Shown one piece after another: positions 9,547 to 14,055 of a stretch of DNA of 53,485 nucleotides. The DNA is from Bacillota bacterium (lineage in GTDB: Bacteria; Bacillota; Sulfobacillia; JAJYWN01; JAJZPE01), in assembly GCA_036504675.1 (NCBI GenBank), contig DASXUT010000004.1, positions 1 through 53,485 of the forward strand. The letters are read 5' to 3'. How positions within the stretch are numbered: position 1 is the first letter of the stretch; every line of letters starts with the position of its first letter. Both the position numbers and the translations under genes were made by a program. The notes beneath the pieces are model-generated. The model was not told the DNA's origin and made no database searches. It saw only the letters and a program-made list of their open reading frames with translations.

Positions 9547-11031
9547 TCAGTTCGGCCCAAGCGGCAGTGGGCCGGTGACCCCGTTCCGCGCGGCCACTTC
9601 CCGCATGGCCCGGTCGAGCCGGTCCATGGCCGCCGGCGGTGGCGGTGAGCCGGGATGCTTATCCAGGATGTCGTGGGCGATGCGCAGGGCCGCGGAATAC
9701 GTGTCGAGGCTGCCGGCCTCCTGCCAGCCGCGGCGGTCATGGCGATCGAAGGCCGCGCTGGGCAGGTCGATCTCCTTGCGGTACCAGCGCCGGGTGTGAG
9801 CCAGGCTTAGGAAGTAGCCCCCCGGGCCGGCCGCCTTGATGACGTCCACGGCGAGCGTCTCGGGGTTCACCTCGACCCCGCGGAGGGCCCGGTAGATCTG
9901 GCCGCAGATGTCGTTGTCGATGACCAGCTTGGCCAGACTGATGGTGTTGACGAAGTCGATCAGCCCGGGGCCGGAGATGATGTTGACCCCGGCCAACGCG
10001 GCGAGCATCCCGGACAGGGCCGTCTCCGCCCCCGACTGGGCATCGACCATCTTGCTGTCGCTCAGGGCGGCGTAGGTGTGGGTCGGAAGCCCATAGTACT
10101 TGCCCATCTGGGCCGAGGCCATGCCGATGAGGGTGGCCTCGACGGCCGAGAGCGGCGTCGTCCCGAAGCGCATGTCGAAGACGACCGGGGCTCCGCCCCA
10201 GACGACTTTGGCCCCCTCCTTGGCGCACTCGGTCAGGACCACCCCGGCCAGGGTCTCGGCGGTGTGCTGGACCACGGAACCGGCGATGGTGGCCGGGGAG
10301 GCCGCGCCGGGCATGGGCATGGAGACGAACTCGATGGGCAGGCCGGCCCTGGCCCCATCGATGATGTTGTGGGCGGCCAGATTGGCGAACTTGAGGGGCG
10401 GCGACGGGCAGACGTCAAAGACCGCGCGGGGTTTCTTGGCCAACTCCTCCGGACTGCCGGCGACGGCCGCCAGGACGTCCTTCATGTCGTGCAGCCCCTG
10501 GACCGAGAAGGCCCCGGTGACGATGGGCTTCTTCGAAGCCCGGAGGATGATGTACAGACGATAGGTGTCGGCGATCTCGTTCGGGGCATCGTGACAGACG
10601 ATGGCCGTAGCCTGCGTCCCGATGTGCGGCAGGGCGTCGGTCAGGCGGACGACCTGGTCGAGGTCGGCGGCCGTGGAGTCGCGGGCGGTCACCCCGTCGT
10701 CCTCGAGGAAGCGAACGGCACAGGAGCCCGGGTCGAAATGAACGCGATTACCGCCGATCAGCGCGGCCGGCCGGCCGGCCCCGTCGTACAGCTGGAACTG
10801 CTCCGGCGCGGCGATGATGGCTTTCTCGACCATGGAGGCAGAGATCTTGGCGATCTTCCGCCCGGCGTCGATCTCGGCCCCGTTGGCGGCCAGCAGATCG
10901 AGAGCGGAGTTCGAATCGATGAATACGCCCGTCTCCGCGAGGACCTTGATGGCGGCCTCGTGGACCTGCAGCACCTGGTCATGGGTGAAGGGTCCGAGCA
11001 GCGGGACTTGTGACAGGTCGAACTTGCCCAT
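9547..11031 (-). CDS. Non-pyrrolysine MttB-family corrinoid methyltransferase
   Basis: The 494-residue protein belongs to the trimethylamine methyltransferase superfamily (COG5598). It has LAETGVFIDSNSALDLLAANGA at the N-terminus, VHFDPGSCAVRFLED, and the conserved FDMRFGTTPLSAVEATL and AGVNIISGPGLIDF region. The frame is open throughout with no in-frame TAG, so this is one of the non-pyrrolysine members. In characterised cases these demethylate quaternary amines such as glycine betaine, proline betaine or carnitine. The ATG at 11031 follows GGGGAGG. No cognate corrinoid protein (MtbC type) or RamA-like activator is in the window, so partner and substrate are unknown. Confidence 0.85.
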   Translation of the reverse strand: MGKFDLSQVPLLGPFTHDQVLQVHEAAIKVLAETGVFIDSNSALDLLAANGAEIDAGRKIAKISASMVEKAIIAAPEQFQLYDGAGRPAALIGGNRVHFDPGSCAVRFLEDDGVTARDSTAADLDQVVRLTDALPHIGTQATAIVCHDAPNEIADTYRLYIILRASKKPIVTGAFSVQGLHDMKDVLAAVAGSPEELAKKPRAVFDVCPSPPLKFANLAAHNIIDGARAGLPIEFVSMPMPGAASPATIAGSVVQHTAETLAGVVLTECAKEGAKVVWGGAPVVFDMRFGTTPLSAVEATLIGMASAQMGKYYGLPTHTYAALSDSKMVDAQSGAETALSGMLAALAGVNIISGPGLIDFVNTISLAKLVIDNDICGQIYRALRGVEVNPETLAVDVIKAAGPGGYFLSLAHTRRWYRKEIDLPSAAFDRHDRRGWQEAGSLDTYSAALRIAHDILDKHPGSPPPPAAMDRLDRAMREVAARNGVTGPLPLGPN

Positions 11032-11803: not shown

Positions 11804-11832
11804 CTGACCACGGCTCTATCCGGCCAGATAAT
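11804..11832 (+). promoter_or_regulatory. Candidate sense promoter for mntH
   Basis: CTGACC (11804-11809) and GATAAT (11827-11832) are 17 bases apart. Both hexamers are imperfect but acceptable. Transcription would start just before the strong hairpin at 11839-11862 and give a structured leader of about 120 bases. Confidence 0.35.
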
Positions 11833-11862
11833 GGAAAAGCCACCGCCCCGCAGGGCGGTGGC
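11831..11862 (-). terminator. Minus-strand intrinsic terminator just beyond the 5' end of mntH
   Basis: GCCACCGCCC (11839-11848) and GGGCGGTGGC (11853-11862) form a perfect ten-base stem with a four-base loop. Read on the minus strand it is followed by TTTTCC. No minus-strand gene lies directly upstream; the nearest is DUF441, 1.7 kb away beyond mntH. It is therefore the natural end of an antisense transcript over mntH. Confidence 0.7.
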
Positions 11863-11877
11863 AGCCCTCTCCGGGCG

Positions 11878-11957
11878 GCCATATCCTGTAGAGAGCAGCC
11901 TTTTTGACGGAGCGGTCTTGGCGGGCGGCACCGTCGGCGCTGCTGGGGGGATATGGC
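11878..11957 (+). promoter_or_regulatory. Structured mntH leader that can hide the ribosome binding site
   Basis: GCCATATCC (11878-11886) pairs with GGATATGGC (11949-11957), GCAGC (11895-11899) with GCTGC (11939-11943), and GACGG (11906-11910) with CCGTC (11931-11935), giving a long nested stem. The 3' arm carries the GGGGGG ribosome binding site of the TTG at 11958. The fold is seen directly; its regulatory role is inferred, and I do not recognise a known RNA class. Confidence 0.4.
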
Positions 11958-13346
11958 TTGCCTTTGCCACAGGCCCTAGACGAAACCGCGACCCTGCCTT
12001 TCCCGGCCCAGGGCTCGAGGGCCCTGGGGTCCTCGGCCCTGGAATCCTCGGCCTCGACCTCCGACTCGGCGCAGCTCATAGCCCTTCCCGAGCGGACTGC
12101 CGCGATTGCGGCCATCCGGCGATCCGGGGTGGCGGGCCGCCTGGCCCGTCTTTCGGCCTTCTTCGGGCCCGCCTTCATCGTCAGCGTGGCCTACATCGAC
12201 CCGGGCAACTTCGCGACCAACCTGAGCGCCGGCTCGGCCTTCGCCTATAGCCTCGTCTGGGTGGTCCTGTGGAGCAACCTGGCGGCCATCTTTCTCCAAA
12301 CGCTCTCGGCCAAACTCGGGATCGCCACCGGAAAGGCTCTCCCCGAGCTGTGCGGTGAACTCTTCTCCCCGAAGGTCAACTGGCTCCTCTGGTCGGTCGC
12401 CGAAGTCGCGGCCATGGCCACGAATCTGGCCGAATTCCTCGGCGGTGCCCTCGGCTTCTATCTTCTCTTCGGACTTCCTTTGCCATGGGCCGGTGTTCTC
12501 ACCGGTCTGGTCAGCCTGGTCATCACCGGTCTCGACCGGTTCGGCCAGAAGGCCGTCGAATGGGCCATCACCGCGCTGGTCGGCGTGATCAGCCTGGCCT
12601 ATGTCCTCGAGATCTTCCTGGCCTCCCCGGACTGGGGCCAGGTCGCCATCCACACCCTGGTCCCGGGCCTCAACCGCGATAGCGTCTTGGTGGCCGTGGG
12701 CATGCTCGGCGCCACGGTCATGCCCCACGTCATCTTCCTGCACTCCCAATTGGTCCAATCCCGTCGGGATCCGTCGACCCTGGCGTCCCTCAGGCGCCAT
12801 CTGAGGATGGAGAAGATCGACGTCGCCGTGGCCATGAACGTGGCCTTCTTGATCAATGCGGCGATGGTCGTCGTCGCGGCCGCCGTCTTCCATTCCCGGG
12901 GCATCGTCGTCACCTCGATCGAGCAGGCCCACATGTCTCTGGCGCCCCTCCTCGGAGCCTACTCGGGAATGGCCTTCGCCGTCGCCCTCCTGGCTTCAGG
13001 TCTATCGTCCTCGGCCGTCGGGACCATGGCCGGTCAGGTCATCCTCAAGGGTTTCGTCCCGATCAAGGTTCCGGCCGCCCTGCAAAAGCTGATCCCGATG
13101 GTCCCGGCGATGACCATCATCGCCACCGGGACCGACCCCGTCAAGGCCCTCATCCTCAGCCAGGTTTCGCTGAGCTTCGCCCTCCCCTTCGCGGTCATCC
13201 CGTTGCTGGTCATCACCGGCCGCCGGAAGGTCATGGGGCCCTTCACGAACAGCCGGCTGACCAGCGGTGTGGGCTATCTCGTGGCCCTGGCCATCGTCCT
13301 CCTGAACCTGGTGCTCCTCTACCTGACCTTCAGCGGCGCGGCCTGA
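11958..13346 (+). CDS. mntH: Nramp-family manganese/divalent metal importer
   Basis: The product (about 462 residues, 11 helices) has the Nramp metal-site motifs AYIDPGNFATN in helix 1 and ATVMPHVIFLHSQL in helix 6, plus SGLSSSAVGTMAGQ in a later helix. Aspartate and asparagine of DPGN and methionine of MPH coordinate Mn2+ in MntH proteins, which import it with protons. The first 50 or so residues are low-complexity and the start is uncertain. The TTG at 11958 has a G-rich site; a GTG at 12129 would begin just before helix 1. The antisense strand carries a Mn2+ riboswitch immediately downstream of the stop codon. Confidence 0.9.
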   Translation: MPLPQALDETATLPFPAQGSRALGSSALESSASTSDSAQLIALPERTAAIAAIRRSGVAGRLARLSAFFGPAFIVSVAYIDPGNFATNLSAGSAFAYSLVWVVLWSNLAAIFLQTLSAKLGIATGKALPELCGELFSPKVNWLLWSVAEVAAMATNLAEFLGGALGFYLLFGLPLPWAGVLTGLVSLVITGLDRFGQKAVEWAITALVGVISLAYVLEIFLASPDWGQVAIHTLVPGLNRDSVLVAVGMLGATVMPHVIFLHSQLVQSRRDPSTLASLRRHLRMEKIDVAVAMNVAFLINAAMVVVAAAVFHSRGIVVTSIEQAHMSLAPLLGAYSGMAFAVALLASGLSSSAVGTMAGQVILKGFVPIKVPAALQKLIPMVPAMTIIATGTDPVKALILSQVSLSFALPFAVIPLLVITGRRKVMGPFTNSRLTSGVGYLVALAIVLLNLVLLYLTFSGAA

Positions 13347-13360
13347 CGGCTATCATTGAA

Positions 13361-13396
13361 AAGGCCTTTACCTCAGGACTCATCCTGAAGTAAAGG
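13361..13396 (-). terminator. Terminator of the Mn2+ riboswitch expression platform
   Basis: On the minus strand CCTTTACTTCAGGA (13396-13383) pairs over 14 bases with TCCTGAGGTAAAGG (13378-13365) across a TGAG loop, then CCTTTTC follows. The left arm starts with CCTTTAC, which is also the 3' strand of the riboswitch closing helix, so the two folds exclude each other. Confidence 0.8.
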
Positions 13397-13501
13397 TCTG
13401 GCTCCCGAGCCTGAGGGCTCGCCGGCAGGACGGGCGGTTGTGGGCCGCCAGCATGTCGCCTCTGCCGACAGATCGTGGATCTGTGAGCTACTCCCCCTTA
13501 C
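13390..13501 (-). promoter_or_regulatory. yybP-ykoY manganese riboswitch aptamer, antisense to mntH
   Basis: Reading the minus strand from 13501, GTAAGG opens helix P1 and is followed by the conserved loop GGGAGTAGC. Next comes a hairpin ACAGATC/GATCTGT (P2). P3 begins CGGCAG, contains GCGACATGCT, is capped by GGCGG/CCGCC and closes with CTGCCG. A hairpin GAGCC/GGCTC (P4) and then AGACCTTTAC, the diagnostic 3' strand of P1, complete the fold. This four-way arrangement and both conserved loops match the Mn2+-sensing yybP-ykoY class, which turns genes on when Mn2+ is high. The aptamer lies 99 bases past the DUF441 stop and 43 bases from the mntH stop, pointing into mntH. Confidence 0.8.
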
Positions 13502-13599
13502 GGAGAATAACCCGGCGATTCAGTTCTGCTCTAGTCTATGCCCGCGTCCGGGAATGGTGCAGGCGGCCTCTTCCGGCCCCGGGCCCGGGAGCCGGGGCC

Positions 13600-14055
13600 C
13601 TATTTCCACAACCGGAAAAGGCGGAAGAAGAGGGCGGTCACGCCGGCCGCCGCCAAGGGCCCCATCGGCACCCCGCGCAGCAAATAACAGCCGATGATTG
13701 TCCCGACCATCAGCCCGACATTCGCGTCGGGCTTGTCTTTCAGCAGCTCGATTCCCTGGGCCCCCAGGTAGGCGGCGATGGCCCCGCCGACCAGGGCCAG
13801 AAACCCGCCCCAGGAGACCATCATCTTAAGGGCCTCAACGAGCTTGACCCGCCCGTAGGCAAAGGGAACGAAGATGGCCATGACCAGGAAAAGCAGGCCC
13901 AGGTTGAGGCCGTGCTGGTCAAGGAAGGGAAAGACGTCCGAGAAACCGAGGATCTTGAGGGCCAAGAGGATCACCGAGGCCTCGATGATCAGATGGTTGT
14001 GGCCGAGAAGCCCCAGGCCCAGGATGACTAGGAGAAATAGATATTCCTGGTTCAA
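13600..14055 (-). CDS. DUF441 (UPF0756, YtwI/YeaL-like) membrane protein
   Basis: The 151-residue hydrophobic protein has four to five helices and the DUF441 landmarks: an N-terminal LLGHNHLIIEASVILLALKIL, then VPFAYGRV and ALVGGAIAAYLGAQGIELL, and a C-terminal GTIIGCYLLRGVPMGPLAAAG. Length and order fit the family (about 150 residues). The start is a TTG at 14055 after GGGAGG. The function of the family is not established. The Mn2+ riboswitch lies downstream on the same strand, so transcription from this gene could also feed the riboswitch. Confidence 0.85.
   Translation of the reverse strand: MNQEYLFLLVILGLGLLGHNHLIIEASVILLALKILGFSDVFPFLDQHGLNLGLLFLVMAIFVPFAYGRVKLVEALKMMVSWGGFLALVGGAIAAYLGAQGIELLKDKPDANVGLMVGTIIGCYLLRGVPMGPLAAAGVTALFFRLFRLWK

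Follow-up and report, generated by a model that had tools for sequence, protein, structure and literature searches.

A manganese riboswitch facing the 3′ end of mntH: a candidate antisense control of Mn2+ import in several lineages of Bacillota

The stretch of DNA analysed here, hereafter the window, comprises 53,485 nucleotides of a Bacillota genome and carries on its minus strand a riboswitch of the yybP-ykoY class, with Mn2+ as the ligand taken from the class literature, which points into the 3′ end of mntH, the gene of the manganese importer. Comparison with related loci makes it fairly probable (about 0.7) that this element acts as an ON switch for Mn2+ at the level of transcription, its output being a non-coding RNA antisense to mntH that would lower manganese import. 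Under low Mn2+, the 3′ strand of helix P1 would join the terminator, and the minus-strand RNA would end at the terminator tail, 12-14 nt before the mntH stop codon. Under high Mn2+, the aptamer would retain P1, the terminator would be blocked and the polymerase would run into mntH on the opposite strand. MntH would then fall via polymerase collision and/or the formation and decay of an mRNA-antisense duplex, and a negative feedback loop on manganese import would close. The ligand and the ON logic are those described for the class (PMC11087558, PMC6754395), and the sign of the proposed antisense control fits physiology, high Mn lowering import. An antisense transcript released by Mn2+ had already been suggested in a sequence-only reading of the window, and gene order, selection and recurrence now support that suggestion; that polymerase reads through into mntH, that mntH is affected, and by which route, collision or duplex, are inferences.

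Every aptamer feature that had been read from the letters (P1, L1, P2, P3 with L3, and P4), as well as the terminator, was found on the minus strand (Table 1), which confirms that reading of the sequence. In the 5′ to 3′ direction of that strand, the order is GUAAGGGGGAGUAGC, P2, P3 with its L3 GCGACAUGCU, P4, CCAGACCUUUAC and the terminator, and both the family-typical L1 GGGGAGUAG and the invariant L3 adenosine are present. A single invariant adenosine of L3 confers Mn2+ specificity on this riboswitch class, and the equivalents of the predicted window residue, A13454, are A41 in L. lactis and A48 in X. oryzae (PMC6754395). This alignment column shows no variation across 17 antisense copies, in which 95.8% of the aptamer cells are paired and 10 pairs show double changes (0 of 500 shuffles). 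The folding energy of the aptamer region in the window has a z of -5.3 against dinucleotide shuffles, none of 200 being as good. P3 of the window pairs if A13461 is left unpaired, a one-nucleotide irregularity in common with the copy of a same-family relative (G002), and this unpaired A is at least part of the cause of the low score of the window aptamer.

Table 1. Features of the mntH-riboswitch locus, in coordinates of the window
Feature	Position	Strand	Basis or detail
yybP-ykoY (Mn2+) aptamer	13389..13501	(-)	R1 match, sequence, fold, G002 identity
P1 helix, GUAAGGG / CCUUUAC	13501-13495 / 13396-13390	(-)	sequence
L1 of aptamer, GGGGAGUAGC		(-)	sequence
P2 helix	13484-13478 / 13474-13468	(-)	sequence
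P3 helix and L3, GCGACAUGCU	P3 starts at 13467; L3 ~13458-13450	(-)	sequence
Predicted Mn2+-discriminating L3 adenosine, A13454	13454	(-)	position by homology, PMC6754395
P4 helix	13421-13416 / 13411-13406	(-)	sequence
Intrinsic terminator, expression platform	13358..13396	(-)	14-bp stem 13396-13365, tail CCTTTTC
mntH, Nramp-family Mn2+ importer	11904..13346	(+)	NF001923 508.8 bits, cut-off 430; PF01566
Putative antisense-transcribed stretch on readthrough	11904..13357	(-)	inferred from geometry
DUF441 membrane protein gene	13600..14055	(-)	PF04284 140.9 bits; 99 nt upstream of aptamer
Weak promoter-like site, TGCACC-N17-TAGACT	13514..13542 (approximate)	(-)	7/12 matches; 16% of shuffles as good

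The class assignment does not come from Rfam. A search of the window with RF00080 gave no match at the gathering score and none at E<=10, an outcome that the sequence-only reading had foreseen as counting against it. Membership stands nonetheless through a covariance model, R1, built from 18 canonical aptamers of other loci with the window left out, whose training alignment holds 16 pairs with double changes (0 of 500 shuffles), a covariation that supports the structure. Over the entire 53-kb window, R1 returned a single match, at 13389-13500 of the minus strand (32.9 bits, E 4.5e-7), and it scored the antisense copy of G002 at 31.0 bits. Since this lineage-specific model finds the window aptamer, the silence of RF00080 is a failure of sensitivity: its gathering score is a detection threshold, not a structural feature, and it under-scores this group of riboswitches. 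A canonical Mn riboswitch elsewhere in the same genome (L001, G000:C37 7450-7577), which precedes a GDT1-family exporter gene and also has a terminator, likewise lies below the gathering cut-off of RF00080, with 35.1 bits against 45. Another canonical copy, in G002 (L040, G002:C244 6724-6868), stands before a gene for a predicted multi-pass membrane transporter-like protein and is again below the cut-off. Annotation by RF00080 alone, or by the nearest downstream gene, overlooks such switches.

As for the expression platform, Mn2+ acts in this class by stabilising P1(.1), which blocks the overlapping terminator (PMC11087558). The window shows the matching arrangement, as the sequence-only reading had it: the left arm of the 14-bp terminator is the 3′ strand of P1, residues 13396-13390 beginning the stem, and the T-tract that follows is short. 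This sharing of a strand recurs in each of the 17 aligned antisense copies, whose terminators have 99.1% of their cells paired and 9 double-change cells over the 17 relatives (0 of 500 shuffles). Between 13300 and 13660, no second terminator-like site was found on either strand beside the stem 13396-13365. Termination would yield a discrete RNA of ~150 nt with a palindromic hairpin, so that the element might be thought to act mainly as a small Mn-responsive RNA or as a bidirectional terminator, with no readthrough into mntH. We hold this to be highly improbable: no T-run follows the hairpin on the strand of mntH, G002 and another antisense locus (L088) have a separate hairpin at the mntH 3′ end, and a pure terminator would need no conserved aptamer.

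The comparison within the family involved the genome of the window (G000) and two relatives, G001 and G002; in a further genome, G003, the contig ends before the layout can be read. The layout of G002 is identical to that of the window, with DUF441 (-), riboswitch (-), mntH (+) and PPOX (-). Between G000 and G002, the aptamer is 90.3% identical and the terminator 83.8%, against backgrounds of 50% in the upstream intergenic region, 62.3% at four-fold sites of mntH and 60.5% at those of DUF441, and because of this excess over intergenic DNA and four-fold sites (~62%) the element is taken to be maintained in place, both aptamer and terminator being under purifying selection. Two of the 11 aptamer differences form a compensatory pair (C13464-G13426 to U-A), and the remainder lie, by position, mostly in the loops of P2, P3 and P4. 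The synonymous sites at the 3′ end of mntH showed no clear extra constraint between G000 and G002. In G001, mntH is kept, only the ends of the element remain, and DUF441 is no longer adjacent. This decayed version, together with the canonical copies that precede exporter-like genes in G000 and G002, makes it conceivable that the window holds a stranded copy, a now functionless orphan left behind by the loss or inversion of its exporter gene, as the sequence-only reading had offered for an alternative. However, the selection in place, seen in the high aptamer identity, the compensatory change and the kept terminator, as well as the recurrence of the riboswitch beside mntH in three MntH lineages, disfavour such a relic and leave it very unlikely.

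That recurrence extends well outside the family. A phylum-wide RF00080 search screened for nearby MntH returned two Carboxydocella-like genomes (L068 and L069) with riboswitch and mntH tail-to-tail, whose MntH proteins are 57% identical to that of the window over the aligned part, and a scan of MntH relatives across named genomes added two more antisense cases, L088 and L089. In the Negativicutes-like class (that of G439 and of L089), 300 genomes were searched with R1 and MntH, and 15 of the 18 orthologues with a readable 3′ flank have a convergent riboswitch at ~200-260 nt or less from the mntH stop. The sequence-only reading had left it to related genomes to tell whether the tail-to-tail order persists, and it does so in G002, in the two Carboxydocella-like genomes and in those 15 of 18 Negativicutes-like orthologues. 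On a tree of MntH with 112 loci, 16 have a convergent 3′ riboswitch, and none of the 112 has a sense riboswitch within 700 nt upstream of mntH. The trait falls in three MntH lineages and requires at least 5 changes, a count of state changes that does not distinguish gains from losses; judging from the tree, the layout may be ancient and have been lost several times, or it may have arisen repeatedly. Six canonical riboswitches (G468, G478, G450, G486, G454 and G470), considered as further candidates for antisense orphans, were rejected, as they sit before exporter-like or other sense genes.

Some other arrangements of the same parts were observed in these searches. In four loci (L089 1981-4492, G494:C39, G518:C14 and G530:C41), mntH lies between two Mn riboswitches, one in sense and the other convergent, 2.4 kb away past mntH; in L089 the GDT1 gene sits between the sense switch and mntH, so that the layout reads riboswitch, GDT1, mntH and, facing them, the second riboswitch. 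An antisense-type riboswitch adjoins an incomplete mntH in two loci: in L242 (G442:C10) the gene is truncated to its N-terminal part, whereas in L243 (G452:C3) a C-terminal remnant is left, behind which a YtaF/MntP-like gene lies in sense. An antisense switch has here possibly been re-used as a sense switch. Finally, L244 (G518:C3) and L245 (G494:C8) are apparent operons in which a sense riboswitch is followed by a TerC-like gene and a distant Nramp paralogue, ~23% identical to MntH, and this context suggests that the paralogue may not be an importer regulated like MntH.

With regard to the surroundings of the element in the window, the true start of mntH is uncertain, its Nramp domain running from ~12125, and 43 nt separate its stop codon (13344-13346) from the end of the aptamer, which is on the opposite strand. 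In its geometry, the locus agrees with the antisense-acting riboswitches of a published survey, namely a riboswitch within 500 nt of the 3′ end of its target and in the opposite direction (PMC9943018). The 43 bases agree with the distance given in the sequence-only reading, which had placed the next minus-strand gene at 1.6 kb; on the longest reading, the next open reading frame of that strand lies at 1.4 kb. A weak promoter-like site precedes the aptamer (Table 1), and a stricter promoter scan of the window element neither recovered it nor found a convincing promoter directly upstream; in the copies of the relatives, conserved-looking upstream hexamers scored no better than many shuffles. The scan found no terminator between the DUF441 gene and the aptamer, and for this reason a DUF441 transcript may run into the riboswitch. 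The promoter of the minus-strand RNA could therefore be that of DUF441 or the weak site nearer to the element.

This proximity gives some weight to a different role, in which the riboswitch would be the conditional 3′ end of the upstream DUF441 transcript, with Mn2+ altering the 3′ end or stability of that mRNA and mntH as a bystander. DUF441 precedes the riboswitch on its own strand without an intervening terminator, in an order that G002 keeps, and L088 likewise has a same-strand gene upstream of its riboswitch. On the other hand, the conserved partner of the riboswitch is mntH: mntH is always present in L089, L207-L209, L213, L218, L220 and L069, where the neighbour on the other side of the riboswitch appears divergent and no same-strand gene thus precedes the switch. 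The riboswitch thus has a stand-alone layout in these loci, and in L069 it is for this reason taken as a free-standing unit. All this makes a mere 3′-end function for DUF441 rather unlikely.

A sense product further along the minus strand would be another way to account for the element, either a small open reading frame within the antisense region or one of the genes past mntH, where a PPOX-like gene (11970-11242) is followed by an MttB-like gene. The PPOX-like gene lies on the same strand and is also present in G002, and a partial parallel exists in G452:C3, whose antisense-type switch beside the mntH remnant reads toward the YtaF/MntP-like gene. However, we know of no link of PPOX or MttB to manganese, in L089 the GDT1 gene beyond mntH is on the opposite strand and nothing is evident in sense for more than 2.3 kb, and open reading frames antisense to mntH are most simply shadows of the conserved gene, all of which renders control of a distant sense product very unlikely.

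Two further observations concern this part of the window. Across G000, G001 and G002, the DNA of the mntH 5′ leader (11832-12000, plus strand) is strongly conserved; this leader contains a -10-like ATAATGG, the hairpin GCCACCGC and two distant segments that pair, GGGCAGCCATATCC/GGATATGGCTTGCC. It matched no Rfam family and was not seen at the other loci compared, and it is possibly an undescribed regulatory leader. In addition, the Rfam family PYLIS_3 (the pyrrolysine insertion element of mttB) matches at 9966-10065 of the minus strand, inside the MttB-family gene. This gene is probably a non-pyrrolysine MttB homologue, since no stop codon interrupts its frame of 527 codons.

Antisense control by a Mn2+ riboswitch at an Nramp gene, of which the sequence-only reading knew no case, has a predicted precedent. 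According to the main text of their survey, Serrano-Gutierrez and Merino predicted in 2023 an antisense yybP-ykoY riboswitch at cthm-CFE_2050 of Carboxydocella thermautotrophica 019, the single example given, and counted 5 antisense among 1,912 in this class, with no enrichment (P 1.00) (PMC9943018). As in the window, that Mn2+ riboswitch lies at the 3′ end of a Mn2+ transporter gene, on the opposite strand, and the same logic was proposed for it; the window differs in coming from another genus, and its aptamer is divergent and escapes RF00080. The Carboxydocella thermautotrophica locus is probably of the same type as L068 and L069. In the main text of the survey, we found neither conservation across lineages nor copies invisible to RF00080 nor exchange with MntR (PMC9943018), and a search of the literature found no experimentally tested antisense Mn riboswitch. 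By its sequence features, the window locus thus joins a kind already predicted and experimentally unproven, with an unexpectedly broad conservation.

In the account given by the same survey, antisense riboswitch control has been described experimentally in two cases, with SAM and B12 as ligands (PMC9943018). The SAM riboswitch of the ubiG-mccB-mccA operon of Clostridium acetobutylicum is also a 3′-end switch that gates antisense transcription over its target, unlike the window in its ligand and in its opposite sign, the target being expressed at high ligand. The B12 riboswitch of pocR in Listeria monocytogenes similarly gates an antisense RNA (aspocR) that originates 3′ of its target, whereas its ligand is cobalamin, its sign is again opposite and its target is a transcription factor (PMC9943018). 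With the canonical yybP-ykoY riboswitches, such as that of L. lactis yybP or L001, the window copy has in common the aptamer architecture, the strand that P1 and the terminator share, and the ON logic (PMC11087558). The canonical copies lie 5′ of sense exporter genes, whereas that of the window has no evident sense gene.

A last question is related to the repressor that usually governs this importer. MntR/DtxR is a protein repressor that acts at the promoter and lowers mntH expression in a Mn2+-dependent manner. The antisense element would likewise lower mntH with Mn2+, through RNA instead of a promoter-acting protein, and MntR/DtxR was not found in most of the genomes that bear it. A genome-wide search for PF02742, the metal-binding domain of DtxR/MntR, did not find it in 14 of the 18 riboswitch-bearing genomes, that of the window included; in a control search, 11 of 14 well-known genomes had it. 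In a subclade of the Negativicutes-like class that lacks the riboswitch (L214, L216 and L217), its convergent position is taken by an MntR-like gene, at 10-52 nt from the stop codon of mntH; the best model for its protein is NF003025, with 111.6 bits against a cut-off of 138, and PF01325 and PF02742 are above their cut-offs. Riboswitch and mntR avoid each other in a clade of 47 MntH members, where an MntR-like gene occurs in the mntH flank of 1 of the 16 with the riboswitch and 22 of the 31 others, two of which have a short or missing 3′ flank (Fisher 2.8e-5, a value that ignores kinship). Independent pairs number 4, which is too few for significance in a sign test; nearly all the pairs that differ do so in the expected direction. 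The same-family relative G001 has neither an intact riboswitch nor a detected MntR.

From this distribution, we propose that in most genomes with the antisense layout the riboswitch stands in for MntR. A wider claim, that in several lineages of Bacillota mntH would owe its Mn-responsive repression mainly or solely to the antisense Mn2+ riboswitch, and that this riboswitch would be evolutionarily exchangeable with MntR, is put forward more tentatively, with a confidence slightly short of even. If it holds, RNA and protein sensors would alternate in the control of the same importer, and in one subclade they would even do so at an identical site beyond the mntH stop codon. In any case, given the selection on the element, its recurrence in separate MntH lineages and the trade-off with MntR, what was a single prediction becomes a regulatory strategy that can be tested and that, if true, would answer how bacteria without MntR limit their import of manganese.
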